The translations under genes were made by a program, and so were the position numbers. A stretch of DNA of 34,220 bases from Muribaculaceae bacterium. Lineage in GTDB: Bacteria; Bacteroidota; Bacteroidia; Bacteroidales; Muribaculaceae. Positions 3,159 to 31,159 of this stretch are shown one piece after another (positions within the stretch are counted from its first letter, which is position 1; each line of letters starts with the position of its first letter). Location: NCBI GenBank assembly GCA_017454355.1, contig JAFTDD010000055.1, positions 1-34,220 on the forward strand, written 5' to 3'. The notes under the pieces were generated by a model. The model searched no databases. It was not told where the DNA came from and saw nothing but the letters and a program-made list of their open reading frames with translations.

Positions 3159-4148
3159 ATGAACAACTCCCTCCTCAACAAACTTGCCGCTGCCGCACTT
3201 GCCGTGACCCTGGCCACCTCATGTGGCGCGTCAACAGCCGATAGCGGCGACAATAACGCCAAGGCGCAGGCCGTCACCGCAGCCCTGCCACAATGCAGCG
3301 GCGACAGCGCCATGGTGCTCGTGGTGAAGCAGTGTGACATGGGGCCGCGGGTGCCCGGCACCGAGGCCCACGCGCGTTGTGCCACGTGGCTCAAAGACCG
3401 CTTGGCCTCGCTCGCCGACACCGTCATCGAGCAGCAGGCGCCGGTCACCACATTTGACGGCACGCGCCTCACCGCGCGCAACATCATCGCCGCCTTCAAT
3501 CCCGAGGCCGCGCAAAGAATACTCCTACTCTCCCACTACGACTGCCGCCCCTGGGCCGACCACGACCCCGACGCGGCACGACGTCGCGACCCCGTCATGG
3601 GAGCCAACGATGGCGCAAGCGGCACTGCAGTGCTGCTCGAACTCGCGCGCGTGATGCGTGACAAAAAGCCGTCCATCGGCATCGACATCCTTCTGGTGGA
3701 CGTCGAGGACTGGGGAGACAGCGACAGTGACGCCCCCGACAGTTGGGCACTGGGCACACAATACTGGGCAGAGCATCCCCACGTGGCCGGATACAAACCG
3801 ATGATGGCAATCCTCCTCGACATGGTAGGCGCAAAGGGAGCGACATTCATGCGCGAGCAGTTCAGCGACTATTATGCCGGCGACATCGTCAATCTGGTGT
3901 GGCGCAAGGCCCGGGCGGCCGGCGCCGGCAACCTCTTTGTCAACAGTGTGGGCGGTGCTGTCAACGACGACCACGTGCCATTGCTGCAAGCCGGCATCCC
4001 GGCCATCGACATCATCGACCTCCGCCCCGGCAGCGACCACGGCTTCTTCCCCCATTGGCACACCACCGCCGACACCCCCGACAAACTCGACCCCGCCACC
4101 CTCCAAGCCGTGGGCAACACCCTGCTCGCCGTCATCTACAACCAATAA
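3159..4148 (+). CDS. M28-family peptidase / glutaminyl-cyclase-like lipoprotein
   Basis: A 329-aa predicted zinc-dependent lipoprotein. The start chosen is ATG 3159 because it opens a lipoprotein signal with lipobox LATSC; an upstream GTG at 3081 would place 26 polar residues ahead of it. The M28 metal-ligand pattern is visible: SHYDCRPWAD, then GANDGASG, then VDVEDWG, then DMVG, then DDHVPL, and a final SDHGFFPHWHT. This arrangement (SHYD-RPWAD plus DVEDWG) is closer to the glutaminyl-peptide cyclotransferase branch than to classical aminopeptidases. The likely role is N-terminal pyroglutamate formation on exported proteins, or aminopeptidase activity. The next gene starts 14 nt downstream. 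Confidence 0.88.
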   Translation: MNNSLLNKLAAAALAVTLATSCGASTADSGDNNAKAQAVTAALPQCSGDSAMVLVVKQCDMGPRVPGTEAHARCATWLKDRLASLADTVIEQQAPVTTFDGTRLTARNIIAAFNPEAAQRILLLSHYDCRPWADHDPDAARRRDPVMGANDGASGTAVLLELARVMRDKKPSIGIDILLVDVEDWGDSDSDAPDSWALGTQYWAEHPHVAGYKPMMAILLDMVGAKGATFMREQFSDYYAGDIVNLVWRKARAAGAGNLFVNSVGGAVNDDHVPLLQAGIPAIDIIDLRPGSDHGFFPHWHTTADTPDKLDPATLQAVGNTLLAVIYNQ

Positions 4149-4162
4149 ACATTCCCCATCAC

Positions 4163-5116
4163 ATGAAACCAATGATAAAGTATAGGGGCGGTAAGTCCAG
4201 AGAGTTACCTCAATTACTGGGCTTTATACCCCGTTTTAAGGGAAGATATATAGAACCTTTTTTCGGTGGAGGCGCATTATTCTTCCATCTTGAGCCTCGT
4301 ATGTCCATCATTAGCGACATCAATGCCAAACTAATGAAATTCTACATTGGTGTCCGTGATGACTATATGCGATTAAGAGAAGAGCTTGATGAAATAGAAA
4401 GCATCTATCGCCAGAACCGGCTGGAATTTGAGCACGAGAAAGCAGAGCGTCCCACAGAGCGCGTCATGGATAACAATGAAACGCTTTATTATAGGCTTCG
4501 CGCTCAGTTCAATGACTTGGAGCCAAAGGTGTATTCAGAGGCTGCCTTATATTTTTACATAAACAAGACAGCCTATTCCGGCATGATAAGATATAATTCC
4601 AAAGGCGAGTTCAATGTCCCATTCGGACGTTATCCAAATCTCAATACGGATGTAATAACCGCCGGACACAGTTTACTGCTTCAACGGGCCACAATCATGT
4701 GTGCCGATTATAGCGAAGTCTTCGCGATGTGCAATGAGGACGATTTTATATTTCTTGACCCACCCTACGACTGCACTTTCTCTGACTATGGAAATCAAGA
4801 GTATCGCGATGGGTTTAACAGCGATGAGCACCACCGATTGGCAAAAGCCTTCTACGACTTACCGTGCAAGGCCCTGATGGTGATTGGCCGCACTCCATTG
4901 ATTGAGGAACTTTACGGAAATGATATCATTTACGAGTATCCTAAACAATACGCCGTCAACATCAGGAATCGTTTCAAGTCAAGCGCCAATCATGTGCTGA
5001 TAGCCAACTATCGGAAAGAGGAGTTATTGCAAGATACTATAAGTTATCCCGAAAAGATAGAGATTCTTCAACCCACATTATTTGAGCCCAAGACGAAATA
5101 TGGCAAAAAAGATTGA
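4163..5116 (+). CDS. D12-class DNA adenine N6-methyltransferase (Dam-like)
   Basis: A 317-aa SAM-dependent enzyme that would methylate adenine in its recognition site. KYRGGKSRELP at residues 6-16 is the N-terminal SAM-binding motif, EPFFGGGALFF (about 31-41) is the FxGxG-type motif, and DPPYD (199-203) is the catalytic motif IV of alpha-group (D12/Dam) methyltransferases. Between these is a Glu/Arg-rich helical stretch (about residues 70-110), then the target-recognition part. It overlaps the endonuclease gene by 17 nt and sits only 14 nt after the M28 gene, with no promoter of its own seen. Base composition is clearly more AT-rich than the flanking peptidase genes, which suggests transfer. 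It is most likely the protective half of the R-M pair. Confidence 0.92.
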   Translation: MKPMIKYRGGKSRELPQLLGFIPRFKGRYIEPFFGGGALFFHLEPRMSIISDINAKLMKFYIGVRDDYMRLREELDEIESIYRQNRLEFEHEKAERPTERVMDNNETLYYRLRAQFNDLEPKVYSEAALYFYINKTAYSGMIRYNSKGEFNVPFGRYPNLNTDVITAGHSLLLQRATIMCADYSEVFAMCNEDDFIFLDPPYDCTFSDYGNQEYRDGFNSDEHHRLAKAFYDLPCKALMVIGRTPLIEELYGNDIIYEYPKQYAVNIRNRFKSSANHVLIANYRKEELLQDTISYPEKIEILQPTLFEPKTKYGKKD

Positions 5117-6806
5117 CAGTCAGGTGCTATTCATCACCACATCACCGCGCTCGCCGCTAAAAATGATACCGGAGATTGAATTACTTGTCTCAAAATTTAA
5201 GGGACAAGTCTGGAACCATGAAACACAAACGCGCTTCATGAACTTGTTGAGCGAAGAAGACTACTTTCATGGTAAGGGAGAGAACGACCCTGCCTTCAGC
5301 GCAAGAGACCGCATCAACCGGGCTCCCAAGTCCTTGGGATTTATTAATCTGAAACCCACCATCCAACTTACGCCTGCCGGTGACAGATTGCTGAATTCCA
5401 AATTTCAAGGTGAAGTTCTGTTAAGGCAACTGCTCAAATTTCAGATTCCCTCCCCATTCCATAAGCCATCAGAAAAAGCGGCTCATTTTCATATCAAGCC
5501 ATATCTTGAAATTCTACGCCTTATTTATACTATTGGAAAGTTGAAGTTTGATGAGCTGCAAATATTCGGCATGCAACTCACAGATTACAGGGAATTTGAT
5601 AAAATTGTTGAGAAAATCAAAGTTTTCCGTAACGATGCCGCTGCACATAATGGAAGTTATCGAACGTTTGTCGCCAAAGTTATAGAGTGCGAGTTAACGC
5701 TGCTTTTTCGTTCAAGGATATCAGGAGGAAACACAAAAACCCGTGAATCATCAGACAAATCGTTGGCAAAATTCCTTAAAACACAACGCAATAATATGCG
5801 TGATTATGCCGATGCCTGCGTGCGCTACTTGAGAGCCACCGGCCTCGTTGATGTTTCAAATGTGGGAAAAACGCTATCTATTGCTTCCTCAAGAATGGCC
5901 GATGTGGAATATATTCTCACCAACGTTGAGCGAGAACCGGCATGTTTTGAAGATGATACTTCTTATATCAATTATCTCGGCAACGCGACTTTGCCTCGAT
6001 TGCTCACTGATAACAAAGAATTACTGTTCAAAAATATCAAATCTCAATTTCCAAACGCAATAATAAGTGACAACTTTTCTCTTGAGCAACTAAAAGAAAT
6101 GTTACTCGACTTGGTTGAGGAGCGAAAAAACAACGCTATTAAAACTGAAGTCACTAGCATCAAAGAATATAAGAGATATAATGACATTCAACAAATGTTT
6201 GGTCTTATTACCGATGGGGAAGTATATGATGCCCCATTGATGATGGAATGGAACACGTGGCGGGCTATGACGATGCTTGACGGAGGCAACATAATCGCAA
6301 ATTTAAGTTTTGACGACTTTGGGCAGCCTCTTTCCACAGCCGGCGGCAACTTGCCGGATATTATCTGCGACTATGGCGACTTCATGGTCTGCGTTGAAGT
6401 CACACTATCATCAGGGCAACGACAGTATGATATGGAAGGAGAATCCGTTACCCGTCACATAGGAAAACTTAACAAAAGTGCCAATAGACCTTGTTTCGGC
6501 CTATTTGTGGCACCAACAATAAACGAGGCGGTTGTGGGACATTTTTACATTCTGCAACATATCAACCTCGTTATGTACGGAGGCAAACTCAATATTATCC
6601 CATTACCACTCAATATTTTCATGAAATTGTTGGAGGCTTCTTTTAACGCTCAAGAGAAACCACGCCCGGAACAGATACTTAGTCTATTCAAAACATCAGA
6701 GCAGATTATCGCGCAATGTGACAACGAGCAGGAATGGTACAACAGTCTCCTTAATAATATATCTATATGGCCTAATGAAACTAACTTTAATCAAAAAATG
6801 ATATGA
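5100..6806 (+). CDS. AlwI-family type II restriction endonuclease
   Basis: A 568-aa endonuclease. Family signatures near the N terminus are TTSPRSPLKMIPEIELL, DPAFSARDRINRAPKSLGF, KPTIQLTPAGDRLL and LLRQLLKFQIPSPFHKP, which I recognise as the AlwI/MlyI/nicking-enzyme family (AlwI cuts outside GGATC). The C-terminal nuclease domain has LPDIICDYGDF and then CVEVTLSSGQRQYDMEGES, with Glu near residue 433; this fits a PD-(D/E)xK core in which Thr replaces the usual Lys, as in that family. The start ATG 5100 is preferred over TTG 5082 because the family region begins right after it. It overlaps the methyltransferase by 17 nt and its TGA overlaps the next ATG. It looks intact. The exact recognition site is inferred. 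Confidence 0.88.
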   Translation: MAKKIDSQVLFITTSPRSPLKMIPEIELLVSKFKGQVWNHETQTRFMNLLSEEDYFHGKGENDPAFSARDRINRAPKSLGFINLKPTIQLTPAGDRLLNSKFQGEVLLRQLLKFQIPSPFHKPSEKAAHFHIKPYLEILRLIYTIGKLKFDELQIFGMQLTDYREFDKIVEKIKVFRNDAAAHNGSYRTFVAKVIECELTLLFRSRISGGNTKTRESSDKSLAKFLKTQRNNMRDYADACVRYLRATGLVDVSNVGKTLSIASSRMADVEYILTNVEREPACFEDDTSYINYLGNATLPRLLTDNKELLFKNIKSQFPNAIISDNFSLEQLKEMLLDLVEERKNNAIKTEVTSIKEYKRYNDIQQMFGLITDGEVYDAPLMMEWNTWRAMTMLDGGNIIANLSFDDFGQPLSTAGGNLPDIICDYGDFMVCVEVTLSSGQRQYDMEGESVTRHIGKLNKSANRPCFGLFVAPTINEAVVGHFYILQHINLVMYGGKLNIIPLPLNIFMKLLEASFNAQEKPRPEQILSLFKTSEQIIAQCDNEQEWYNSLLNNISIWPNETNFNQKMI

Positions 6807-8899
6807 GAACAATAACCACATTAATGCTTATGGGCATCATCACGGCATCGGCGGCCAAGCCGCTGAACTATCCCGTCGCGGCACGCGTCGACACCGTCGA
6901 CCACTACTTCGGCACCGCCGTGCCCGACCCTTACCGCTGGCTTGAGGACGACAACAGCGAGCAAACGGCCGCTTGGGTCAAGGCCGAGAACGCCGTCACA
7001 CGCGCCTATCTCGACCGCCTGCCACAGCGCAAGGCCATCCACAAGCGCCTCACCGAACTCGCCAACTACGCCAAGATGGGCGCGCCGTCGATCCACAACG
7101 GCAAGTATTACTTCTTCCGCAACAACGGCCTGCAGAACCAGAGCGTGCTCATGGCAGCCGACCGTCTGGGAGGCGAGGAGCGCGTCGTGCTTGACCCCAA
7201 CACGCTCAGCACAGACGGCACAGTCGCCTTGCAGCAACTCAACTTCTCGGACGACGGGCGATATCTGGCCTACGTCATCACCCGCAACGGCAGCGACTGG
7301 AACGAAATCTACGTGCTCGACCTCAACACCGGCAAGACGCTTGACGACCACATCATGTGGGCCAAGTTCACCGACGCGCAATGGCTGGGCGACGGCTTTT
7401 TCTACAGCGCCTACGACGCGCCGGAGGACGCCAAGTCGAGCAAAAACGAGTACCACAAGGTGATGTACCACCGCCTGGGCACACCCCAGAGCGAGGACTA
7501 TGTTGAGTATCGCAGCCACACCAACCCGCTGCTGTTCTATCAGGCACAAGTGGTGGGCGACCAGCGCTACGTGGTCATGTGGGAGAGCGATGGCGATGGC
7601 AACGCCCTCTACGTCAAGGACCTCAAAGACCGCAATCCGCATTACGTGAAGTTGGCCGACGGCATGAAGTACACCCGCAACGTCGTTGGTGTGCAGGACG
7701 GCCGCCTCATCGTGATGACCAACGAGGGCGCTCCGCGCTGGAAACTCGTGGCCTACGATGCCGAGCGCCTCTCCCCCGCCAATGTCAGCGAGTTCGTGCC
7801 AGAGCGAGAGTGGGTGCTCAGCGACGTCTCGATGGCCGGCGGACAGTTTATCCTCACCTACGACCGCGATGCCTCGTCCCACCCCTACCTCTTTGACAAG
7901 AACGGCAAGGAGATACGCGAGATTGCCCTGCCCACCTTTGGCAGCGTGGGCTTCAGCAGCCGGCAGAAGGAGAAAGAGGTCTTTTACACATTCTCCAGTT
8001 ACGTCTACCCCTCCACAATCTACCGCTACGACATGGCAACCGGCGAGAGCTCCCAAGTTTTCGCGCCCAAAGTAGCCCTCAAGAGTGCCGACTACGTCAC
8101 CGAGCAGGTGTTCTTCCCCAGCAAGGACGGCACACGCATTCCCATGTTCCTTATATATAAGAAAGGCCTCAAGAAAGACGGCAAGCGGCCGACGTTTGTC
8201 TACGGCTACGGCGGCTTCAACATCAGCATGAACCCCGTGTTCACTTACACGCGCACCCCGTTCACCATGCTCGACAAGGGCGGCATCTGTGCCTACGTCA
8301 ACCTGCGTGGCGGCGGCGAGTATGGCGAGCAGTGGCACGAGGCCGGCACCAAACTGCAGAAGCAGAACGTCTTTGACGACTTCATCGCCGCCGCCGAGTG
8401 GCTCATCGCTCAGGGCTACACATGTCCGGCAAAACTCGCCTGCAACGGCGGCAGCAACGGCGGACTGCTCGTGGGCGCCGTCGTCAACCAGCGACCTGAC
8501 CTCTGGGCCGCCGCAGTGCCGCAGGTGGGCGTGATGGACATGCTGCGCTACCACGAGTTCACCATCGGCTGGAACTGGGCTCATGACTACGGCCGCAGCG
8601 ACGACAACCCCGAGATGTTCCGCTACTTGCTCGGATACTCGCCGTTGCACAACATCAAGAACGACGGCACGCGCTATCCGGCCATCCTCGTCACCACCGG
8701 CGACCATGACGACCGCGTGGTGCCCGCCCACTCGTTCAAGTATGCCGCCACACTACAGGCCAGCGACACCGGCGACGCGCCCAAACTCATCCGCATCGAC
8801 ACCAATGCCGGCCACGGCCACAGCAAGCCGTTGAGCAAAATCATCGACGAGTACACCGACATCCAAGCCTTCATCATGGCCAACCTCGGCGTCAAGTAA
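6803..8899 (+). CDS. Prolyl oligopeptidase (S9A family serine peptidase), exported
   Basis: A 698-aa serine peptidase that cleaves short peptides after proline. A signal peptide precedes the mature start near LNYPVAARVDTVDHYFG. The canonical S9A opening DPYRWLEDDNSEQTAAWV is present, followed by a seven-bladed propeller region (about 70-410) and the alpha/beta-hydrolase domain with YGYGGFNISMNP, LRGGGEYGEQWH and the nucleophile motif GGSNGG. The Asp (GDHDDRV) and His (NAGHGHSKP) of the triad are also visible. Length is normal for the family. ATG 6803 overlaps the endonuclease stop in ATGA form, so translation may be coupled; an in-frame ATG at residue 8 or 10 could be the pre-insertion start. 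It is probably periplasmic. Confidence 0.93.
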   Translation: MRTITTLMLMGIITASAAKPLNYPVAARVDTVDHYFGTAVPDPYRWLEDDNSEQTAAWVKAENAVTRAYLDRLPQRKAIHKRLTELANYAKMGAPSIHNGKYYFFRNNGLQNQSVLMAADRLGGEERVVLDPNTLSTDGTVALQQLNFSDDGRYLAYVITRNGSDWNEIYVLDLNTGKTLDDHIMWAKFTDAQWLGDGFFYSAYDAPEDAKSSKNEYHKVMYHRLGTPQSEDYVEYRSHTNPLLFYQAQVVGDQRYVVMWESDGDGNALYVKDLKDRNPHYVKLADGMKYTRNVVGVQDGRLIVMTNEGAPRWKLVAYDAERLSPANVSEFVPEREWVLSDVSMAGGQFILTYDRDASSHPYLFDKNGKEIREIALPTFGSVGFSSRQKEKEVFYTFSSYVYPSTIYRYDMATGESSQVFAPKVALKSADYVTEQVFFPSKDGTRIPMFLIYKKGLKKDGKRPTFVYGYGGFNISMNPVFTYTRTPFTMLDKGGICAYVNLRGGGEYGEQWHEAGTKLQKQNVFDDFIAAAEWLIAQGYTCPAKLACNGGSNGGLLVGAVVNQRPDLWAAAVPQVGVMDMLRYHEFTIGWNWAHDYGRSDDNPEMFRYLLGYSPLHNIKNDGTRYPAILVTTGDHDDRVVPAHSFKYAATLQASDTGDAPKLIRIDTNAGHGHSKPLSKIIDEYTDIQAFIMANLGVK

Positions 8900-8986: not shown

Positions 8987-10396
8987 TTACGCAAACAAGT
9001 CGTTCATTGTGAGCACATTCTGCACGTCATCATAATACTCATTCTTCACCAAACCCATCGAAGACACCAATGCCAAATGAATGGCCTTGGAAGTGCGTGT
9101 CTCCTCACGAAAGCGTTCTATTTTGTTCTGTAAAACCATATCATACTCTTCATCGATCGCAAACGGCTTCTTGCTATACTTCATCTCACATAATGTTATC
9201 ACCTGATCATTGCGGTCAATCAGCATATCAACCTGAGCCCCACGACTTGACTCCCGCCTTGAACGCCATGAATAGACACTACTCAGCACACCGGCAATGC
9301 CCAACGCCCGCTTTATTTGAGGCACATGCTCAAAGCACACTCGCTCAAAAGCCAAACCACACCATGAGTAGTAGGTCGGCGTTCCCTGACTCAGACTCCA
9401 ATATCGCTCATCGACACCGCTTTTACCATGCAGAAACTTAAAGTAAAAGAGTGTGTAGAAATCTACCAATTGATAAATCGCGTCACGCTCCTTCTTGCCT
9501 ATTGACACATACTTGCGGATAAAACCACAGCTCTCCAAGTCATTGAGCACGGCGGTGAGATTGCCGTTATTTGCGATACCGATCTCTTTAATCAACTCGG
9601 CACGGCTCATTCCGGCATGCTTCACGCTCAGTGCCGTCACTACATCTATATATCGTTCAGGCCTGTGGAACAATGACGCATATAACTCGTCAAACTCACC
9701 ATATAGCATTCCTGATGGATTGAAAAACAGAGCATCAATATTCTGAGCCAAACTGAGACTTCTTTTCAGGAACGACCAGTAGAACGGCACACCACCCATA
9801 ATCATGTAGCATTCGAGAACCTGCTTGCGCTGGAAACGGAGACCCAAAGAGGACGCGTACGCCTCGCACTCACGCAACGTGAACGGCTTTACATTTATCC
9901 GGCACGTCACCCTGTTGTGCAGGCCGCCATGATTCTTGATGACATTATTTATAATCCACGATGTGGCCGAACCGCAAATGACTAACATAATATCTTTGCG
10001 AGCCGATGCCCAACTATTCCAAAAAAATTCCAACGCGGTCACAAAACCGGAGCGGGGGGTGTCCAGCCATGGCATCTCGTCAATAAAAATGACTTTCTTT
10101 TTTGCTCTACTGCGACGGACAACCTCTTTCAAAGCACTAAAGGCATCAATCCACGTCTGTACGCTCGGCAACTCTTTTAGTCCGTAATCCTTGAGCGAGT
10201 CACACCACGCCGCTAACTGGCTCTTTCGGTCGGCATTGGCAAGGCCCGCATGAGAGAACGTGAACTTTGCACCCAACGTTTCTCTCACAAGATAGGTCTT
10301 GCCCACACGCCGACGGCCATAAACGGCAACAAACTCCGACTGTGTCGAGGAATAGGCATCATGCAACAACTGTTGCTCTAAATCACGTCCAATCAT
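8987..10396 (-). CDS. P-loop ATPase with DUF234-like nuclease-fold domain (paralogue 1)
   Basis: A 469-aa protein of the archaeal-type ATPase / DUF234 family. Near the N terminus is IGRDLEQQLL, then Walker A GRRRVGKT (about residues 27-34) and Walker B VIFIDEMPW (about 102-110). A GSATSW sensor-like motif and a winged-helix-like region (ELIKEIGIANNGNLTAVLND) follow. The C-terminal domain has AQVDMLIDRNDQVITLCEMK, an Asp plus ExK arrangement expected of a PD-(D/E)xK fold. The start ATG 10396 is chosen over TTG 10402. It is about half identical by eye to the gene at 19853. The family is abundant in Bacteroidales and Archaea, and its function is not established; defence, toxin or mobile-element roles are guesses. 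More AT-rich than its neighbours. Confidence 0.85.
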   Translation of the reverse strand: MIGRDLEQQLLHDAYSSTQSEFVAVYGRRRVGKTYLVRETLGAKFTFSHAGLANADRKSQLAAWCDSLKDYGLKELPSVQTWIDAFSALKEVVRRSRAKKKVIFIDEMPWLDTPRSGFVTALEFFWNSWASARKDIMLVICGSATSWIINNVIKNHGGLHNRVTCRINVKPFTLRECEAYASSLGLRFQRKQVLECYMIMGGVPFYWSFLKRSLSLAQNIDALFFNPSGMLYGEFDELYASLFHRPERYIDVVTALSVKHAGMSRAELIKEIGIANNGNLTAVLNDLESCGFIRKYVSIGKKERDAIYQLVDFYTLFYFKFLHGKSGVDERYWSLSQGTPTYYSWCGLAFERVCFEHVPQIKRALGIAGVLSSVYSWRSRRESSRGAQVDMLIDRNDQVITLCEMKYSKKPFAIDEEYDMVLQNKIERFREETRTSKAIHLALVSSMGLVKNEYYDDVQNVLTMNDLFA

Positions 10397-10419
10397 AAAC
10401 AATTCTTAGTTTGATGCTG

Positions 10420-10488
10420 CAAAAATAATAAAAAAAAGCGAAACTTGGCTATAAGTCCTCCAAAAAATGACTTATAGCCAAGTTTCGC
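10420..10488 (-). promoter_or_regulatory. Promoter plus 20-bp-stem hairpin (copy 2) of the ATPase gene
   Basis: On the minus strand a -7-like box TATTTTTG (10420-10427) lies 24 nt before the ATG. The hairpin arms are perfect over 20 bp (10438-10457 and 10469-10488, 11-nt loop), and the nearer arm covers where the -33 element should be. The hairpin could be an operator or an upstream terminator. Its sequence matches the hairpin at 8928-8978 in all but one base. Confidence 0.5.
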
Positions 10489-12282: not shown

Positions 12283-12957
12283 TTAATTGTTATGGGGTAC
12301 TTCATAAACCGTGGGGTCATCGATGCCGGCGGCGGCGAGGGCTTCGCGCCGCTCGGTGCAGGTTCCACACGTGCCACAATGCGTTTGGCCGCCCTTGTAG
12401 CATGAGTAGGTGGTTGAGTAGTCGATACCCAAGGCCTTGCCGTGGCGCGCTATCTCGGCCTTGTCGATATCGGTGTAAGGCGCAAACAGGGTCACGCCCT
12501 CGTAGGTGCCCGCGGCAATCGCGCCACCCATCGCCTCGACAAATGCCGGACGGCAGTCGGGGTAGATCGCGTGGTCGCCGCTATGGTTGGCAATCATCAC
12601 GCGGCGCAAGCCGTTACTCTCGGCCATACCGGCCGCGATGGCCAGCATGATGCCGTTGCGGAACGGCACCACCGTCGAGCGCATCGACTCGTCGTCATAG
12701 CGTCCATCAGGCACCGCCTCGGCGTTCTCCAAAAGCGCGCTCTTGAAGTGCTCGCGCATGAAGCCCAGCGGCACCACGATGTGACGGATGCCCAGGTCAC
12801 GACAATGACGGGCCGCGCACGGTATCTCGCGAGCGTTCTGCAGCGAGCCGTAGTCAAACGTCACCGCCAACGCTATCTCGTCGGCAAACTCGTGCAGCAT
12901 CGTCACCGAGTCCATTCCGCCCGAAACTACTATCAACGCATCCTTGTTACAATGCAT
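12283..12957 (-). CDS. queC: 7-cyano-7-deazaguanine (preQ0) synthase QueC
   Basis: A 224-aa ATP-dependent enzyme that converts 7-carboxy-7-deazaguanine to preQ0 in queuosine synthesis, in the cytoplasm. The PP-loop motif VSGGMDSVTML is at residues 11-21. RNGIMLAIAAGMAESNG and HSGDHAIYPDCRPAF follow, as in the family. The C-terminal zinc site CYKGGQTHCGTCGTC supplies four cysteines. Length is normal (about 220 aa). The start codon overlaps a short run of CATAATT repeats (12952-12976). queF lies 41 nt upstream on the same strand, so the two are probably cotranscribed. queD and queE are not in the window. Confidence 0.96.
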   Translation of the reverse strand: MHCNKDALIVVSGGMDSVTMLHEFADEIALAVTFDYGSLQNAREIPCAARHCRDLGIRHIVVPLGFMREHFKSALLENAEAVPDGRYDDESMRSTVVPFRNGIMLAIAAGMAESNGLRRVMIANHSGDHAIYPDCRPAFVEAMGGAIAAGTYEGVTLFAPYTDIDKAEIARHGKALGIDYSTTYSCYKGGQTHCGTCGTCTERREALAAAGIDDPTVYEVPHNN

Positions 12958-12976
12958 AATTCATAATTCATAATTC
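12952..12976. repeat. Short CATAATT-type repeat (solo copy)
   Basis: Three iterations of an 8-bp ATTCATA unit lie between queF and queC. The same unit forms the inverted repeats around the four-helix-bundle gene at 14287-14319 and 14714-14746. It may be a remnant or a preferred site of that element. Confidence 0.6.
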
Positions 12977-13570: not shown

Positions 13571-14284
13571 ATGGAATCTTTCGTTGAACAACTCGTCTCG
13601 CAGGACGTCACCCTGATTAACGCCGTGGCAAAGTTGCTGCTCAGCCTCATGCTTGGCGCGTTGATTGGCCTGGAACGCCGCCGCAAGGGGCAAATCGCCG
13701 GCCTGCGCACCTTCGCTCTCATCTCGATGGGCGCCACCCTAGCAATGCTCATCTCGATATATATCCCTCAAGAATTCTTTATGGTCAAGAACGGCGACCC
13801 TGGGCGCGTGGCGGCGCAAGTCATCAGCGGTGTGGGCTTCCTTGGCGCCGGCGCCATCATCCAGATGAAAGGCTCGGTGCGCGGTCTCACCACCGCCGCC
13901 GGCATTTGGATTGCGGCATGCATCGGCCTGGCGGTGGGCTGCGGCATGTACCTTATCGCGGTCATCGCCACGCTGCTAATCATCTTTATCCTCGTCAACA
14001 TCGAGCGCATCGAGCAGCGAGTGGGCTTCCTTTGGGAGGCCAAAATCGTCCGCCTCAGGCTACACGGCATCGTCACCGACCTGCAACCGGCACGCGATGT
14101 GATGAAGGCCCACGGCGTCCACTCCAGCGACGAGTATGTCAAATATGACTACGACTCCAAGCAGACCATCGTCAACTTTATGGTGCGCACGCGCGACGCC
14201 ATGGACCCCTCGGCAATGTTTGCCGACATGAGCAACCACCTCGACCTGGCCAGCGCAACCCTCACCAACGAACTCAACCTTTAA
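13571..14284 (+). CDS. MgtC/SapB family membrane protein
   Basis: A 237-aa inner-membrane protein. The family signature LMLGALIGLERRRKGQIAGLRTFALISMGATLAML lies at about residues 25-60, followed by VISGVGFLGAGAIIQ and GLTTAAGIWIAACIGLAVGCGMY, giving four or five membrane segments. The C-terminal 80 residues are a soluble, ACT-like domain. MgtC proteins are linked to survival in low magnesium and to control of ATP synthase in some bacteria; the role here is inferred only from family. The start ATG 13571 is chosen because the family alignment begins there; a start at 13529 would overlap the promoter box. A KefB-like antiporter follows after the IVS-type insert. Confidence 0.9.
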   Translation: MESFVEQLVSQDVTLINAVAKLLLSLMLGALIGLERRRKGQIAGLRTFALISMGATLAMLISIYIPQEFFMVKNGDPGRVAAQVISGVGFLGAGAIIQMKGSVRGLTTAAGIWIAACIGLAVGCGMYLIAVIATLLIIFILVNIERIEQRVGFLWEAKIVRLRLHGIVTDLQPARDVMKAHGVHSSDEYVKYDYDSKQTIVNFMVRTRDAMDPSAMFADMSNHLDLASATLTNELNL

Positions 14285-14286
14285 AC

Positions 14287-14319
14287 AATTCATAATGCAT
14301 AATGCATAATGCATAATTA
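14287..14319 (+). repeat. Left inverted repeat around the four-helix-bundle gene
   Basis: A 33-nt run of ATAATGC units begins 2 nt after the mgtC stop. It is complementary to 14714-14746 over 33 nt with two mismatches. Confidence 0.85.
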
Positions 14320-14341
14320 TCCTTTAGAAATCAGAATTCGC

Positions 14342-14716
14342 ATGAAGACGGTTGATGAGAATTTAGTTGCGGCCAAAAGCAAGGCTTTTGCCATCCGATG
14401 CATTAGATTATATGACTATTTAAGAGAGAGAAGGGCTAACTATGTTCTAAACCTCCAACTTTTGAAATCTGGGACAAGCGTTGGAGCCAATGTCAAGGAA
14501 GCAATCCGCGGCCAGTCTCGCCCAGACTTTGGATCGAAAATGAATTTGGCTCTCAAAGAGGCAAGCGAATCCGAATATTGGCTTGAACTAATGCTGGAAA
14601 CAGGCATTTTAACCGAAGAGCAGGCAATAAGCATCTTGAATGACTGTCGTGAATTATTGCGGTTACTGACATCTATCGTTAAAACCACCTTTCAGAATCA
14701 ACCAAGTAATGCCTAA
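14342..14716 (+). CDS. Four-helix-bundle protein, 23S rRNA intervening-sequence (S23/IVP) family
   Basis: A 124-aa all-helical protein. Signatures are LRERRANYVLNLQLLKSGTSVGANVKEAIRGQSRPDFGSKM (about 27-68) and ALKEASESEYWLELM with a C-terminal NDCRELLRLLTSIV, which I recognise as the S23/IVP four-helix-bundle family, related to the Avd accessory protein of diversity-generating retroelements. Members are encoded in insertions of 23S rRNA genes, and free-standing copies are common in Bacteroidetes; their function is unclear. The start ATG 14342 is chosen over 14309, which lies in the repeat. It is enclosed by complementary 33-nt repeats and its stop codon TAA is the first base triplet of the right repeat. 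No reverse transcriptase or variable-repeat gene is nearby. It is more AT-rich than mgtC and the antiporter on either side. Confidence 0.87.
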   Translation: MKTVDENLVAAKSKAFAIRCIRLYDYLRERRANYVLNLQLLKSGTSVGANVKEAIRGQSRPDFGSKMNLALKEASESEYWLELMLETGILTEEQAISILNDCRELLRLLTSIVKTTFQNQPSNA

Positions 14717-14746
14717 TTATGAATTATGCATTATGAATTATGAATT
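14714..14746 (-). repeat. Right inverted repeat around the four-helix-bundle gene
   Basis: The reverse complement of 14287-14319 with two differences. It starts at the stop codon of the four-helix-bundle gene and ends 6 nt before the antiporter start. Confidence 0.85.
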
Positions 14747-14752
14747 AATAAA

Positions 14753-16990
14753 ATGACTGACTTAATACAAGACCTCGCTCTTATCCTTATTTTGGCGGCC
14801 GTGTCGACCGTCGTCTTCCGCCGGCTGAAGTTGCCGGTGGTGCTCGGATATATCCTCGCCGGCTTCCTGGCCAGCCCCTACTTCTCTTTTCTGCCTAATA
14901 TAGTCAACGAGGAGAACATCGAGTTCTGGGCAGAAATCGGTGTCATCTTCCTCCTCTTCTCCATCGGACTGGAATTCAGCCTCAAGAAACTCTTGCAGGC
15001 CGGCGGCGGAGCGTTTGTCACCACGCTGATTATGGTCTGCGGCATGCTCGGGCTCGGTTTCAGCGTCGGGCACTATATCATGGGCTTTGACAACACCAAC
15101 AGCATCTTCCTCGGGGGAATGCTCTGCACATCGTCCACATCAATCATCCTCAAGACGCTCACCGACCTCAAGATGATGCACCGCCGCTATGTCCCCGTCA
15201 TGTTTGCTGTGCTCATCATCGAGGACCTCGTCGCCGTCGTGCTTCTCGTCATTCTCTCCAGCGTGGCCGAGGGCAACGTCAGCAGCCACCGCATCGTGGG
15301 CAGCGTGCTCAAGTTGTCGTTCTTCCTCATCATTTGGTTTGTCGTGGGCATCTTCTTGATGCCCAGCATCTTCAAGCGCTTCCGGCGTGTCATCAGCGAC
15401 GAGTCGATGCTCATCCTCGTCATCGGCCTCTGCTTCATGATGGCTCTTACCGCCGACGAACTATTCGGCAGTGCCGAACTTGGCGCATTTGTCATGGGCT
15501 CAATCCTGGCCGGCACATTTGAGGTGAGACGCATCGAGCGCATCACCGCGCCAATCAAGGACCTCTTTGCCGCCGTCTTCTTCATCTCAATCGGCATGAT
15601 GGTCAACCCCAGCGTTATCCTGGCCAACTGGAGCACAATCCTCCTGCTGGCCGTCGTGGTAATTCTGGGCATGATCATCTTTGGCACCTTTGGCATGCTC
15701 GTCACCGGGCAACCGCTCAAACTCGCCATCGAAGCCGGTTTCACCCTCACCCAAATCGGCGAGTTCTCGTTCATCATCGCCAAGTTTGGCAAGGCGCGCG
15801 GCGTGCTCAGCGACGACATCCTGCCAATCATCGTGGGCGTGAGCGTTATCACCATCTTCACCACTCAGTATTTCATCAAAGCGGCCGAACCGTTCTACAA
15901 CTTCGTCAACGCCCGCTTGCCTCAGCGCGTCAAGGACACCCTTGACAAATACAGCCGCAGTGCCGACAAGGGCGACCGCGGCGAGGCACGGCAAATCTGG
16001 GGAACAATCATCAAGCGATACCTCTCACGCCTGGCAATCTACGGCTCCATCACCGTTGCTGCCATCTGGACTATCACCCAGTATCTGCTGCCGGTCATCG
16101 TTCAGCATTTGGGGCACAAATGGGGCGAACCGCTCTGCGCCGTCATCACCCTGTTTGTCATCTCGCCGTTCCTCTACGCCATCTTCTCGGCCGGCGCGCG
16201 ACGCAACGAGGTGGACCGCCTGGTCAACATCAGCGGTAAGGTCTCCTACGTGCCGATGGTGGTCATGACAGTCATCAGCATGCTCGTCTCACTCGGCTTT
16301 ATCCTCGCCACAATGGGACGCATCTTCCCGGGCAACATCGCCATCCTCGTCTCTATCGGCGTCTTCCTCGCCGGACTGTTCATTTTCAGACCCGTGCTCA
16401 AGCAACGCCTCCAGAACATCGAGCAGCGCTTTATGGGCAACGTCAACGTCACCGAGAACCGACGCACCGGACGCGACAACAACCTCGTCAGCGACCTCCA
16501 TCTGGCTTACATGACCGTGGGATATGGCTGCGAGTTCATCGGCATGCGCCTGCGCAAAGCCGACTTGCGGCGACGCTTCAACATCAACCTGGTGAATATC
16601 GAGCGCGACGGCACCCTCTACCCCGTGCCCAGCGGCGACACACGCATCTTGCCGGGCGACATCCTGGGCGTTATCGGCACCGACGACCAAATCATGGCAT
16701 TTCTGCCGCTCGTCGAGGCCGAAGCCGTGCCCGCCGCCAGCGCCGGCGAGGCCAAGTTTATCCACTTTGAACTCCCGGACGGATCTCCCATTGTGGGCAA
16801 ACTCCTGCGAGACGCCAGGCTGCGAGAAGACTACGGCGCACTGCTCGTCGCCGTTGAACGCGACACAGACAACACCCCCGACACCGACGCCGAATACCTC
16901 CAACCGACACCCGAACTCGACTTCCGCCCGGGCGACATCCTCTGGATTGTGGGCGACCCGGACCGCCTCAAACCGTTACACAACAAATAA
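14753..16990 (+). CDS. KefB-like cation:proton antiporter (CPA2) with two TrkA-C domains
   Basis: A 745-aa inner-membrane transporter expected to exchange monovalent cations (K+ or Na+) for protons. The N-terminal 390 residues hold about 12 membrane segments with family motifs PVVLGYILAGFLASPY, EIGVIFLLFSIGLEFS, LCTSSTSIILKTL and ADELFGSAELGAFVMGSILAG. A further hydrophobic block at about 420-560 gives several more segments. The C-terminal 190 residues carry two RCK_C/TrkA-C modules: RRFNINLVNIERDGTLYPVP with ILPGDILGVIG, and a second ending FRPGDILWIVGDPDRL. The full nucleotide-binding RCK_N fold is not apparent. Located 36 nt past the IVS-type gene and 7 nt ahead of the DUF486 gene; the original unit was probably mgtC-antiporter-DUF486. 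Confidence 0.9.
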   Translation: MTDLIQDLALILILAAVSTVVFRRLKLPVVLGYILAGFLASPYFSFLPNIVNEENIEFWAEIGVIFLLFSIGLEFSLKKLLQAGGGAFVTTLIMVCGMLGLGFSVGHYIMGFDNTNSIFLGGMLCTSSTSIILKTLTDLKMMHRRYVPVMFAVLIIEDLVAVVLLVILSSVAEGNVSSHRIVGSVLKLSFFLIIWFVVGIFLMPSIFKRFRRVISDESMLILVIGLCFMMALTADELFGSAELGAFVMGSILAGTFEVRRIERITAPIKDLFAAVFFISIGMMVNPSVILANWSTILLLAVVVILGMIIFGTFGMLVTGQPLKLAIEAGFTLTQIGEFSFIIAKFGKARGVLSDDILPIIVGVSVITIFTTQYFIKAAEPFYNFVNARLPQRVKDTLDKYSRSADKGDRGEARQIWGTIIKRYLSRLAIYGSITVAAIWTITQYLLPVIVQHLGHKWGEPLCAVITLFVISPFLYAIFSAGARRNEVDRLVNISGKVSYVPMVVMTVISMLVSLGFILATMGRIFPGNIAILVSIGVFLAGLFIFRPVLKQRLQNIEQRFMGNVNVTENRRTGRDNNLVSDLHLAYMTVGYGCEFIGMRLRKADLRRRFNINLVNIERDGTLYPVPSGDTRILPGDILGVIGTDDQIMAFLPLVEAEAVPAASAGEAKFIHFELPDGSPIVGKLLRDARLREDYGALLVAVERDTDNTPDTDAEYLQPTPELDFRPGDILWIVGDPDRLKPLHNK

Positions 16991-17369: not shown

Positions 17370-18355
17370 CTGTTTGTGTCAGTCAAGCGCCACGAGCCAC
17401 CCTTGTTGGGGCCAATGCGTTGGATAATGCCGGCACGCTTCAGTTTGGCCAACAACCGTTCACACTGCCGCTCAGTAACGCCCAGCATTGCCGACAGCTG
17501 CCGTGCCGTCACGGCAGCATCGCGAGCAATCGCTTCTAGCACCTTACGCTCGCTTATACCGACATTTATTCCGACATTTACACCGACATCCTTCTTTTGA
17601 TGCGCCTTCAACGAGGCACTTATCTCGCCGAGCATAAAGTCAATGAACGGGCCACAGTCAGCCAAAGCGCCACTCTGCATTATCGCGTCATAGTAACGTT
17701 GCTGATTTGCATGTACCATATTCTCGACTGGCAAGAATTCAAAGACAGGATTCAGTTTTCCCAAAATCAGCGACTGCCACAACCGTCCCATTCGGCCGTT
17801 GCCGTCCAAGAAAGGATGAATAAATTCAAACTCATAGTGGAAAACACAAGAACGGATTAAAAGGTGATCCTCAGAATTCTTTAGCCATCCGAACAGATTT
17901 CCCATCAACTGTGGCACCATGGCGTGAGGAGGAGCCATATGTACCAATCCTTGCTCTCCAAACACACCCACACCTTGTGACCTGTAGTGACCCGCCTCCG
18001 GCACCAAAGCCTCCATCATCACGCTGTGAGCCTTTAGCAAGTCTTTCTCCTTAAAAGCATCTAACTTGGGGTATAGATCGTAGGCGCGTATCGCATTGCG
18101 CACCTCTTGCAACTGGCGCATTGGAGCAATCACAGTCTTACCATTGATTACGTCTCTCACCTCATCTTCGCTCAGAGTATTGCCCTCGATTGCAAGTGAG
18201 CTATAGATAGTCTTGATACGGTTAGCCTTGCGCAACTTTAGACCATCCGCCTGCTCAAGCCTGATTACATAACGCTCAATCAAACCCGAAATCTCAGCAA
18301 TCAGGTTAATGGCAGCCGTTGACACGGTGAATGGTGGTCGATATTCTGAACCCAT
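17366..18355 (-). CDS. Fic family protein with N-terminal inhibitory helix and winged-helix tail
   Basis: A 329-aa predicted AMP-transferase (AMPylator). The Fic catalytic motif HPFLDGNGRMGR is at residues 180-191 with every key residue present. An inhibitory motif SSLAIEGN (52-59) places it among class II Fic proteins, whose N-terminal helix blocks ATP binding by its Glu. A Fic_N-like region occupies about 1-90. The C-terminal 70 residues form a winged helix (ARQLSAMLGVTERQCERLLAKLKRAGIIQRI), and just before it is a VGVNVGINVGISE run. It may bind DNA and control its own expression. The promoter box TATCTTTG is at 18388-18395 (minus). The substrate is unknown; it could be a housekeeping regulator or toxin-like. 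More AT-rich than its neighbours. Confidence 0.92.
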   Translation of the reverse strand: MGSEYRPPFTVSTAAINLIAEISGLIERYVIRLEQADGLKLRKANRIKTIYSSLAIEGNTLSEDEVRDVINGKTVIAPMRQLQEVRNAIRAYDLYPKLDAFKEKDLLKAHSVMMEALVPEAGHYRSQGVGVFGEQGLVHMAPPHAMVPQLMGNLFGWLKNSEDHLLIRSCVFHYEFEFIHPFLDGNGRMGRLWQSLILGKLNPVFEFLPVENMVHANQQRYYDAIMQSGALADCGPFIDFMLGEISASLKAHQKKDVGVNVGINVGISERKVLEAIARDAAVTARQLSAMLGVTERQCERLLAKLKRAGIIQRIGPNKGGSWRLTDTNS

Positions 18356-18387
18356 AATTGAATCAACTCTCTAATCAAACACTTTTA

Positions 18388-18395
18388 CAAAGATA
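18388..18395 (-). promoter_or_regulatory. -7 promoter box of the Fic gene
   Basis: TATCTTTG on the minus strand, 32 nt before the Fic start codon. No clear TTTG partner was found at the usual distance upstream. Confidence 0.45.
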
Positions 18396-18511
18396 ATCAT
18401 TTTTCGCGACATATCACCTCTCTTAATCGAATATTTAGCCACCTCGACAAAAATTCCTTAGATTGTGCATGTGATACCAACCACGACACCATCTTTAGAA
18501 ATTAATTTGTC

Positions 18512-18661
18512 TTGCTGTATCTTTTTTGAACATGAGTTTCGCGTCTATTTTCGTCTATAACAACGTCTATTTTCGTCAATTTTTTACTTTTGACGTGAAT
18601 AGACGTTGTCATAGACGTGAATTGACGCTAACCTCTAAAAAATGCTTAATCGAGAGGAGAT
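18512..18661 (-). repeat. 150-bp palindromic element, copy A
   Basis: Reverse-complement copy of 29653-29803; the two differ only by one A in a poly-A run. Internally it is a large hairpin: about 40-nt arms built of CGTCTATT / CGTGAATT-type units spaced about 10-11 bp, around a T-rich loop. It sits in the Fic-deoD divergent gap. No ORF. Confidence 0.9.
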
Positions 18662-19467: not shown

Positions 19468-19485
19468 CCCCCTGCCCGCTTTTTT

Positions 19486-19618
19486 AGACACAAATACATA
19501 AGAACTAAAGACAGGAGAACAAGAGGAAAAAGACGGCAATAGTTAACGCTTTTGTCTTGAAAATCTTCTTGTTCTCCTGTCTAAAATTTATGGATAATTT
19601 ATGGTAATTCGTGTTTAA
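19486..19618. repeat. Hairpin element after deoD
   Basis: Perfect 16-bp arms at 19509-19524 and 19567-19582 (TCTTGTTCTCCTGTCT) enclose 42 nt. A conserved tail AATTTATGGTAATTCGTG at 19596-19613 recurs next to the 129-bp elements (24597 and 26577). The left end (about 19487-19505) resembles the inverse of that tail. It may act as a deoD terminator, but the tail marks it as one of a dispersed family. Confidence 0.7.
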
Positions 19619-19685
19619 GTAATCAGCGACTTTCTACAGTGGACTCATTCATCATGTATCTTATGTCCTTTATCTAAAAAAATCT

Positions 19686-19799
19686 CTGCCAAAACGGGGT
19701 TAAAAATACGTGTTTTGGCAGAATTACGGCCGGTTTTCCGCCAAAATCGAGTAAAAATTATGTATTTTGGCAGAATTTAGGCATTTTTCCTGCCAAAAT
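19686..19799 (+). promoter_or_regulatory. Five regularly spaced, alternating half-sites before the second ATPase gene
   Basis: The motif TGCCAAAA or its reverse TTTTGGCA occurs at 19686-19695, 19712-19721, 19740-19747, 19764-19771 and 19791-19799, alternating in orientation. Centres are 24-27 bp apart. The last arm covers the expected -33 region of the promoter. This looks like an operator array, or the binding site of the ATPase itself. Confidence 0.65.
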
Positions 19800-19813
19800 T
19801 CATAAAAAAGTTG

Positions 19814-19821
19814 TATCTTTG
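19814..19821 (+). promoter_or_regulatory. -7 box of the second ATPase gene
   Basis: TATCTTTG, 31 nt before the start codon. A normal TTTG is not present at -33; the half-site 19791-19799 lies there instead. Confidence 0.65.
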
Positions 19822-19852
19822 CTCTGTCAAATAATATAATTGATAATACGCT

Positions 19853-21286
19853 ATGGCAGACTTTTTCGGACGACAGGCGGAACGTGACGAACTGTTGCGA
19901 TGTCTCAACTCCAATCGTTCGGAGTTCGTGATTATTTACGGACGCCGACGCATCGGCAAGACATACCTTGTCAATAATGTGCTCGGCAACAGGCTCACCT
20001 TTTCATTCACAGGTTCACACACGGCGCCAACCGAACGTGAATTGATGCGATTTGCAATGACACTCGCCAACTGTGGACTCGACAATGGCGACGTTCCCAC
20101 CCTTAACAATTGGTATGACGCTTTTGATGCCATACAGCGACTATTGGAATCCGCTCCATCAGGCAAGAAAGTCATTTTCATAGACGAGATGCCGTGGATT
20201 GACAAGCGTGGCAATCAGTTCGTGTCGGCATTGGAGGACTTTTGGAACACATGGGCTGCCTTAAGAGGAGACATAATGCTGGTGGCATGTGGTTCAGCGA
20301 CATCTTGGATGAACAACCACCTGGTTGAGAACCAGGGAGGTCTGCACGGACGTATAACATCACGCATACGCTTGCGGCCGTTCTCTCTTCACGAATGCGA
20401 ACAATACTTGCGAGCGATGGGATGCGAATGGGACCGTTACCAGATTGTGCAGTGTTATATGACCGTTGGCGGGATACCTTACTACCTCAGTTTGCTTGCC
20501 CCCAACAAGAGCCTGGAGCAAAACATCGATAATTTGTTCTTTGACAGCACAAGCAGGCTAAGTGGTGAATTCAGTGAGCTGTACAATGTGTTATTTAACG
20601 ATGCCGCAAAATATGTGGATATTGTCAAGTTGCTGGCCGCGCACCCCGAAGGTTTGACGCGGCAGGAGATTTTAAAATTGCTGAAACTCAATAGTGGAGG
20701 TGGCATCACACAACGTCTTGCCAATCTCGAGGCGTGCGACTTCATAACCTCCTATCAACAGTCAGGCAAGAAGACTTCTAACAGCATCTATCGTCTGACG
20801 GATTTCTACACCTTGTTCTATTATAAGTTTATAGAGGGTATCAACACACTTGGCGAGCAATATTGGGTGTATCGTGCCAATGATAGAGACGTGATGGTGT
20901 GGCAGGGCACTACTTTTGAACTGGTATGCATGCAGCACATCAATCAGATCAAGCAGGCTCTCGGAATAATTGGCATACGCACAACAGCGTCTGCATGGCG
21001 CAATTCCGGTGAAGACAAGGCGCAAATTGACTTGGTTATTGAGCGGGCTGACCGTATGACGCACCTCTGCGAAATGAAGTTCTCCACCGAGAAGTTCGTA
21101 GTCACTAAGCAATATGCCGACCGACTGCGTGAACGCATGGCCATCTACAGGCAGCATACGGGCTATCGTCATGCATTGATCAATACGCTTGTCACGACAG
21201 TAGGGCTGGCGAATGGCATTCACAGTGGTGTGTTTGCCAACTGCGTCACGCTCGATGACCTTTTCGTTGCTCGACGACTGATATAA
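19853..21286 (+). CDS. P-loop ATPase with DUF234-like nuclease-fold domain (paralogue 2)
   Basis: A 477-aa paralogue of the gene at 8987. Walker A GRRRIGKT is at residues 30-37, Walker B VIFIDEMPW at about 107-115, GSATSWM follows, then LRPFSLHECEQYLRAMG. A winged-helix-like stretch EGLTRQEILKLLKLNSGGG lies at about 262-280. The C-terminal nuclease-fold domain has AQIDLVIERADRMTHLCEMK, again Asp plus ExK, so a PD-(D/E)xK site looks intact. Function of the family is not established. It has its own promoter with a repeat array unlike that of paralogue 1, yet placed at a similar position, which suggests each copy has its own cognate operator. Confidence 0.85.
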   Translation: MADFFGRQAERDELLRCLNSNRSEFVIIYGRRRIGKTYLVNNVLGNRLTFSFTGSHTAPTERELMRFAMTLANCGLDNGDVPTLNNWYDAFDAIQRLLESAPSGKKVIFIDEMPWIDKRGNQFVSALEDFWNTWAALRGDIMLVACGSATSWMNNHLVENQGGLHGRITSRIRLRPFSLHECEQYLRAMGCEWDRYQIVQCYMTVGGIPYYLSLLAPNKSLEQNIDNLFFDSTSRLSGEFSELYNVLFNDAAKYVDIVKLLAAHPEGLTRQEILKLLKLNSGGGITQRLANLEACDFITSYQQSGKKTSNSIYRLTDFYTLFYYKFIEGINTLGEQYWVYRANDRDVMVWQGTTFELVCMQHINQIKQALGIIGIRTTASAWRNSGEDKAQIDLVIERADRMTHLCEMKFSTEKFVVTKQYADRLRERMAIYRQHTGYRHALINTLVTTVGLANGIHSGVFANCVTLDDLFVARRLI

Positions 21287-21330
21287 AGGTGTAGCATCGA
21301 CTTGCCGGCCGCATGTTTTGTGCGGGTTGG

Positions 21331-21361
21331 TTGCACATGCCGGGGATTATTCGTAACTTTG
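21331..21361 (+). promoter_or_regulatory. Promoter of the BspA-like gene
   Basis: TTG at 21331-21333, 20 bp, TAACTTTG at 21354-21361. The start codon at 21430 is 69 nt downstream. Confidence 0.6.
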
Positions 21362-26400: not shown

Positions 26401-26408
26401 CAAAGATA
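26401..26408 (-). promoter_or_regulatory. -7 box of the ABC-F gene
   Basis: TATCTTTG on the minus strand ends 9 nt before the chosen start codon, so transcription should begin at or just before the ATG. The -33 region falls at the edge of the 129-bp element copy 2. Confidence 0.6.
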
Positions 26409-26429
26409 AAATTATCCATTAATTTAAGC

Positions 26430-26558
26430 CTCCCGTGAATTAACGTGAATATCCGTGAATAAATAATCTTGATGATGAGTACAAGACTTCGTCTTGCAAT
26501 ACACAACCATTTTTTGTGAAATAAAAAATTCACGAGAATTCACGGAAATTCACGGGAG
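26430..26558 (+). repeat. 129-bp element, copy 2
   Basis: Same length and orientation as copy 1 at 24463, with the 29-nt core at 26479-26507 differing by one base. The terminal repeats are less perfect (CTCCCGTGAATTAACG at the left, AAATTCACGGGAG at the right). The conserved tail AATTTATGGTAATTCGTG starts at 26577. It fills most of the gap between the ABC-F and MBOAT genes. Confidence 0.88.
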
Positions 26559-26611
26559 AAAAAATAATTCATGGATAATTTATGGTAATTCGTGTTTATT
26601 TAAACTTACTC

Positions 26612-29803: not shown

Positions 29804-30195
29804 TGACGATATTCAGCAAAATCGTGGCCGGCGAAATCCCCAGTTACAAGATTGCCGAGGACGAGAACTACTACGCCTTCCTCGACATCAACCCCGTCGC
29901 CCCGGGCCACACTCTGGTCATCCCCAAGCGTGAGGTGAGTTACATCTTTGACCTCACTCCCGACGAGTACGCCGGCCTCTGGGCCTTTGCCCGCCGTGTC
30001 GCCGCCGCGCTTGAGCAAGCCGTGCCGTGCCGCCGCATCGGCATCGCCGTCATCGGCCTTGAGGTGCCCCATGCCCACATCCACCTCGTGCCACTCAACA
30101 AGGAGGGCGATATGGATTTTGCCCACAAGCAGCAACTCCCGCCGGAACAGATGGAGCAAATCCGCCAAGCCGTCTGTGAACAGTTGAGAGGTTGA
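29803..30195 (+). CDS. HIT family nucleotide-binding protein
   Basis: A 130-aa protein of the histidine-triad group, which hydrolyse nucleotide phosphoramidates and similar bonds (Hint branch). The opening TIFSKIVAGEIPSYKIAEDE and the mid-part FLDINPVAPGHTLVIPKREV are typical. The triad itself is HAHIHLVPL at about residues 90-98. Length matches the Hint branch. The start ATG 29803 touches the end of the 150-bp element, so its 5' leader is made of that repeat. Cotranscription with greA is likely. Confidence 0.95.
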   Translation: MTIFSKIVAGEIPSYKIAEDENYYAFLDINPVAPGHTLVIPKREVSYIFDLTPDEYAGLWAFARRVAAALEQAVPCRRIGIAVIGLEVPHAHIHLVPLNKEGDMDFAHKQQLPPEQMEQIRQAVCEQLRG

Positions 30196-30330: not shown

Positions 30331-30343
30331 CATCCAACCAATT

Positions 30344-30994: not shown

Positions 30995-31000
30995 CAAAAT

Positions 31001-31157: not shown

Positions 31158-31159
31158 TC

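Follow-up and report, generated by a model that had tools for sequence, protein, structure and literature searches.

An IVP gene enclosed by inverted heptamer arrays

The window, by which we mean the whole 34,220-nt stretch of DNA that was analysed, carries on its forward strand an mgtC gene (13,571–14,284, assigned by its MgtC match) and, downstream, a gene for a Na+/H+ exchanger with TrkA-C (14,753–16,990, assigned by family match). Between the two lies a short cassette whose loop holds one gene only (14,342–14,716, forward strand), encoding a protein of 124 amino acids. This gene had been read from the letters alone as being of the S23/IVP type and it does match PF05635 (6.5e-23) and TIGR02436 (5.6e-26). 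Structure prediction gives a four-helix bundle (mean pLDDT 92.3) for which the best match in the PDB is 2RLD, a Bacteroides S23 protein (TM 0.81–0.88, identity 48–51%), with 2GSC also among the closest structures. A relative of this protein in Xanthomonas is described, in passages of PMC4990558, as a homopentamer.

The gene is enclosed by two arms. The left arm (14,287–14,318, forward strand) begins 2 nt past the mgtC stop codon and reads as tandem heptamers, AATTCAT followed by three copies of AATGCAT and a partial AATT. The right arm (14,715–14,746, reverse strand) carries the same heptamers inverted; it begins within the IVP stop codon (14,714–14,716) and ends 6 nt short of the antiporter ATG at 14,753, so that the placement of both arms is as first described. 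The arms had been given as 33 nt long and complementary except at two positions, a description that holds at 32 nt (two mismatches) but not at 33 nt, where there are three. Tandem Repeats Finder (TRF) reports both as (AATKCAT)n with a period of 7. Their inverted-match score is 27, where none of 500 shuffles exceeds 12, and the predicted RNA fold of the cassette has a z of −3.07, none of 100 shuffles being as stable. A terminator or a chance palindrome was ruled out as an account of the arms, which exceed both the shuffles and the control ORFs described below.

Paired arms around IVP genes of the genus

PF05635 is present in 56 of 61 genomes of the genus. We examined 138 IVP loci, 134 of which were usable in having at least 200 nt on either side (L091, L094, L144 and L199 were omitted for having less on one side); loci L004 and L005 of the window's own genome, long ORFs that fall below the Pfam cut-off, were left out together with other weak, partial or unlisted matches. 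At an inverted score of at least 12, which was our criterion for arms, 112 of the 134 loci have inverted arms, 10 have direct ones at the same score, and 22 fall below the arm threshold. Control ORFs of at least 100 aa, drawn from 20 pieces of 20 kb, reach this score in 9 of 255 cases inverted and 16 of 255 direct, and in the subset of 100–200 aa none of 54 does so inverted. Other free-standing IVP genes had been proposed as a check on the reading of this locus, and with the window locus and its ortholog in the sister G016 excluded the arms are found in 110 of 132. The IVS-like layout outside rRNA claimed in the original prediction is therefore supported, and is general across IVP loci.

Within the first 109 loci, tandem arrays have a period of 7 in 59 left and 72 right flanks, while periods of 3–6 and 8–13 each yield 0–4 and shuffles give almost none. 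In these same loci the left and right arms belonging to an element match in 92 of 109 cases but arms taken from different elements do so in only 64 of 646 (Mann-Whitney p 1e-43). Among 103 elements with an inverted score of at least 14, the arms are separated by a median of 436 nt, a length taken up almost wholly by the gene, and they lie close to the start and stop codons (median distances 14 and 21 nt).

The idea that these loci sit inside rRNA was rejected: in a scan with six short rRNA motifs, allowing up to one mismatch, none of the 138 genus loci and the best 80 of at least 590 loci from elsewhere had two of the six motifs, and four had one.

A second gene family in the same 61 genomes also lies between inverted short repeats, namely the PDDEXK_3/GxxExxY genes, represented by 30 PF13366 loci (L346–L375). 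Inverted arms are found in 27 of the 30 and direct ones in 5, and arms match between elements in 61 of 231 comparisons. When the score is relaxed to 10, the period of these arms is mostly 9 (4 left and 12 right flanks), with a few of 8 or 10 and none of 7. The window itself has 10-nt arrays similar to CGTAAATTTT at 34,054–34,188, which by eye resemble the arms of L361, a GxxExxY gene of the same genome.

Other phyla and plasmids

Beyond the genus, we took the best 80 of at least 590 matching loci, one genome per species; 75 were usable and five had less than 200 nt on one side. Inverted arms occur in 60 of these 75 and direct ones in 15, arms match between elements in 18 of 442 comparisons, and period-7 arrays are found in 31 left and 43 right flanks as against 0–3 at the other periods from 4 to 12. 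Six loci identical to genus loci were kept among the 75; once they are removed the figures become 54 of 69 inverted and 13 of 69 direct, with 15 of the 69 below the arm threshold, a sample that is non-random since its loci are the best 80 of at least 590. Within these 69 non-duplicate loci at least one armed locus occurs in 15 of 17 phyla, and Bacillota are lower, with inverted arms at 10 of 17 loci. The sequence motif of the heptamers outside the genus is approximately AG followed by five looser bases; the motif is weaker within the genus and lies above a permutation null, and we offer it as a description only.

On plasmids (16 of 35 records sampled) 15 of 16 IVP loci have inverted arms and 2 of 16 direct ones, compared to matches in 10 of 144 comparisons between elements. 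The armed loci comprise 13 of the 14 cyanobacterial ones plus those of Azospirillum and Gemmatirosa, and the period is 8 rather than 7 in the Gemmatirosa and Picosynechococcus arms. In phages one query gave no IVP match at E 1e-6.

In four cyanobacterial plasmid loci (L426, L431, L429 and L425) armed IVP genes interrupt gene pairs. The order is cas6-IVP-cas4 in two cases and cas10-IVP-cmr3 in a third, and in the remaining one the IVP gene lies between two ribonucleotide reductase subunit genes.

The heptamer follows the IVP protein

The heptamer unit is highly variable among elements (AGTTTAG, TTAGTCC, AATGCAC, GATTAGT, GTAGCAT and others). We compared pairs of elements from different genomes, taken from 118 elements with a called heptamer and lacking a detected shared flank. 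A common heptamer is found in 1.1% of 3144 pairs below 30% IVP identity, 1.9% of 1328 at 30–40% and 1.1% of 1153 at 40–50%; the proportion is then 7.8% of 554 pairs at 50–60%, 38% of 301 at 60–70%, 73% of 60 at 70–80% and ten of ten above 80%. The correlation of IVP identity with heptamer sharing is 0.35, the permutation maximum being 0.05. A shared flank here means one detected by BLAST within 900 nt, and some heptamer-sharing pairs may therefore share a site that has diverged.

Heptamer arrays away from IVP genes

A solitary AATKCAT array lies at 12,951–12,976 of the window (forward strand), where queC begins and ahead of queF. It had been noted, at 12,952–12,976, as the same repeat unit without the gene and possibly an empty or decayed site. 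The array is there, but the empty-site reading is not supported: the 17-mer AATKCATAATKCATAAT has 120 matches in the window's own 2.7 Mb genome, compared to 5 for a reversed control, which makes this array one of many dispersed ones. We examined 31 distinct AATKCAT arrays of this genome away from its five IVP places; eight are accompanied by an inverted array no more than 700 nt away, and the other 23 stand alone.

Such arrays go together with IVPs across genomes. All 12 genomes with the corresponding IVP type have at least ten AATKCAY array matches (median 95.5), as do 4 of the 49 others (median 0); the association is weaker for AGRGTTT (8 of 10 versus 7 of 51 genomes). G016, a carrier of the corresponding IVP, has 44 matches to a TTGACCG pattern; the window's own genome, which lacks this IVP, has 5. 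In the 20 pieces of 20 kb we found 25 period-7 arrays, as against 0–3 at periods 4–6 and 8–12; 13 of the 25 match a heptamer of an IVP in their own genome where 3.7 would be expected (0 of 2000 permutations), and for the other 12 no matching own-genome IVP was found. The arms of locus L001 had no dispersed copies in two genomes.

In G005, G011, G030 and G034 AATKCAY arrays occur with no matching IVP found. On the rpoB tree (49 of the 61 genomes, the window's own being absent) G011, G030 and G034 fall within IVP-bearing clades and G005 does not; for the first three, loss of the IVP after spread of the arrays would fit. Loci L197–L221 were retrieved when the array counts were already known, and the expectation itself was recorded only afterwards; those in G008, G028, G045 and G048 matched what the arrays led us to expect and those in G011 and G030 did not. 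Seven independent pairs on the tree are informative for AATKCAY: 4.4 change the same way as the IVP, 0 the opposite way and 2.6 show no difference (sign test p 0.06–0.25). For AGRGTTT two supported pairs are available, which is uninformative. Since the rpoB pairs are too few for significance, shared ancestry may explain the co-occurrence of arrays and IVPs.

Presence, absence and inversion

We found mgtC in 40 of the 61 genus genomes and read its junction with the antiporter gene in 30, the window's own included. At 28 of these the junction has no IVP gene and a spacing of 25–195 nt; the cassette is present only in the window's genome and in its sister G016. The comparison of this junction among relatives, which had been suggested together with the original prediction, thus speaks for presence and absence and against a gene fixed in all relatives, and a vertically fixed gene at the mgtC junction is ruled out. 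The 28 IVP-free junctions hold no AATKCAT arrays, whereas ten hold period-7 arrays of other sequence and one an array of another period.

In the sister species G016 the L001 site has no IVP but retains about 17 nt of the heptamer together with another palindrome, so that gain and decay are indistinguishable there. Where G016 carries the element L202, the window's genome has a PDDEXK_3 gene within other inverted repeats. Two loci of sister species, L160 and L162, share 94% identity in the gene and 93 and 86% in the flanks, but the flanks are swapped, which is a clean inversion, and both orientations of the loop are found in 4 of 26 shared contexts. Neither an exact empty site nor, in its absence, a target-site duplication was observed, the closest relative G016 carrying the mgtC cassette too and the L001 site retaining remnants. 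The suggestion that the cassette may be a mobile element is nonetheless supported indirectly, at the level of sequence, by presence and absence, by related IVPs at sites with no detected shared flank, and by the flips. The further suggestion, that it may fold out of mRNA, was examined as far as the predicted RNA fold given above.

Alignment of the window with contig C11 of G016 revealed further differences. Window blocks 4,142–6,840, 9,038–10,431, 17,394–18,660 and 19,472–21,343 are missing from the G016 contig; they hold a Dam methylase gene and its neighbor, a Fic gene, and two P-loop-like genes with no NCBIfam match. A 52-nt tandem repeat of about 2.3 copies (19,686–19,821) lies inside one of these blocks. 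At the place of 17,394–18,660 the G016 contig has a nested palindrome, in which CGTCTATT arms surround CGTAAATT arms, as might result from insertion of one element into another's loop. Intergenic palindromic elements made of short tandem units (10-mers and 8-mers) at 26,406–26,621, 30,171–30,343 and 30,989–31,180 are absent or replaced in one of the two contigs, and at the place of the first of these G016 has a TTGACCG-like heptamer array instead.

Interpretation and alternatives

The paired arms, the period of 7, the heptamer that follows the IVP, presence and absence, flips and dispersed arrays are all documented as features of sequence. We consider that the cassette probably belongs to a widespread class of selfish hairpins, in which two inverted tandem-heptamer arrays surround one IVP gene. 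Against this reading count the loci below the arm threshold, those with direct matches, the arrays with no matching IVP found and the few informative pairs on the rpoB tree. The IVP, possibly as a ring of five like its Xanthomonas relative, would recognise its own heptamers where single-stranded DNA or RNA folds into a hairpin. Such recognition would help the element, and bare arrays in trans, to reach further intergenic sites; the arms would stay alike, even as their sequence drifts, through fold-back copying of one from the other. We know of no catalytic site in IVPs; candidates for the cutting, copying and joining would be a reverse transcriptase paired with an Avd-like protein, or else enzymes of the host that act on replication-fork hairpins.

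We put forward a broader reading more tentatively. IVPs may be the specificity factors of a class of mobile hairpins that creates and spreads heptamer arrays in many phyla, its products including the S23-bearing intervening sequences (IVSs) of rRNA and the cyanobacterial, Beggiatoaceae and xanthomonad G-rich heptamers; the PDDEXK_3/GxxExxY family would do likewise with units of about 9 nt, each protein family setting the length of its unit. If true, this would join two old puzzles, the source of bacterial heptamer repeats and the S23 gene and origin of rRNA IVSs. It would also name a protein with a predicted ligand, its own heptamers, and so a direct binding test; it would explain why the two arms of an element agree although elements differ in arm sequence; and it would describe a kind of element whose sole gene is no known recombinase.

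Three other accounts deserve weighing. The heptamer palindromes could themselves be the mobile or self-generating part, through slippage and hairpin repair, with IVP genes as passengers in their loops that have no role in the repeats. The AATKCAT arrays that stand away from IVP genes, most of them single, count in favor of this account, as do the period-7 arrays of other sequence at ten of the IVP-free mgtC junctions. A passenger, however, would have no need to track the repeat, and the heptamer can be predicted from IVP identity even in the absence of a detected shared flank, and the arms around a different family, PDDEXK_3/GxxExxY, have a period of 9 and not 7. We regard this account as unlikely.

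Distinctly less probable is a regulatory or RNA-processing module, in which a stem in the mRNA is cut or blocks read-through from mgtC to the antiporter gene, the IVP binds the stem and controls itself, and the other arrays are operators. Heptamers ahead of start codons in Beggiatoaceae have been proposed as translational regulators (passages of PMC4679880), and the predicted RNA fold of the cassette and the closeness of arms to start and stop codons would both suit such a role. Against it, the IVP family adjoins many different neighbors and most relatives do without the cassette at the mgtC junction, and regulation leaves unexplained both the flips and the cassettes found within cas and nrd gene pairs. 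Finally, it is highly improbable that a conventional transposase encoded elsewhere in the genome moves the cassette as an ordinary MITE-like element. Although hairpin shape, presence and absence, and intergenic sites would suit such an element, conventional transposons have ends of fixed sequence recognised by the transposase, and the ends of IVP elements vary widely and follow the IVP.

Comparison with known systems

The selfish hairpin class that we favor can be set beside several known systems. As regards insertion sequences and MITEs, with their fixed terminal sequence and target-site duplication, what was observed is an end sequence that changes from element to element. The RAYT/REPIN system, as described in PMC3116915, is similar in combining a gene with inverted repeats, in its many dispersed cognate copies and in a repeat type that follows the protein; in contrast, the IVP folds as a four-helix bundle (best match 2RLD) and is no HUH tyrosine transposase, and the ends of its elements are variable tandem heptamers, not REPs. 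The Avd protein of diversity-generating retroelements (4DWL, 8UB7) has a fold that appears distantly similar to the IVP model (TM 0.68–0.71, Foldseek E 0.16–0.31, with unrelated helical bundles ranking equal or higher), and PF05635 has been remarked on as Avd-like in a passage of PMC10053308. Unlike those retroelements, the cassette consists of the IVP alone, and at its locus there is no reverse transcriptase, template or variable repeat.

Tandem heptamers are reported to be over-represented in many bacterial genomes. Published examples, as far as the matching passages describe them, are TAACTGA (PMC4679880), GGGAATC and GGGGAYT (PMC4692102, which reports 70 convergent cases in Xanthomonas campestris and calls the role of its set yet to be elucidated) and the P6b repeats of Nostoc trnL (PMC4476775). 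They resemble the arms described here in being 7-nt tandem units that are intergenic or in a stem and often form inverted pairs. In the searchable text of these papers the term 'four helix' is absent from all three and 'S23' from PMC4679880 and PMC4692102, and among the matches listed in open PMC full text we found no link of IVPs to flanking intergenic heptamer arrays. The arms of locus L084 contain TCAGTTA units, the complement of the TAACTGA of Beggiatoaceae. We infer that TAACTGA, GGGAATC and the Nostoc trnL heptamers may be products of the IVP element class.

The closest likeness is to the IVSs of 23S rRNA, which share with the window cassette an S23/IVP ORF in the loop (here PF05635 at 6.5e-23) and terminal repeats forming a long stem (here 32 nt with two mismatches). 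The window cassette lies between mgtC and the antiporter gene and, being outside rRNA, is not itself an IVS. RNase III excises IVSs from their transcript, and the window cassette, with its predicted stem, may undergo the same. The 23S IVS of Coxiella, in passages of PMC4990558 that also call the origin of rRNA intervening sequences unclear, is 428 nt long with a 28-bp stem and has tandem GACAGAT heptamers ahead of its S23 gene; these passages describe none in its 3' arm and place the 5' cut in the middle of the stem, at the start of the first repeat. Because this anatomy is much the same as that of the window cassette, S23-bearing rRNA IVSs look like copies of the class that would have landed in rRNA helices.
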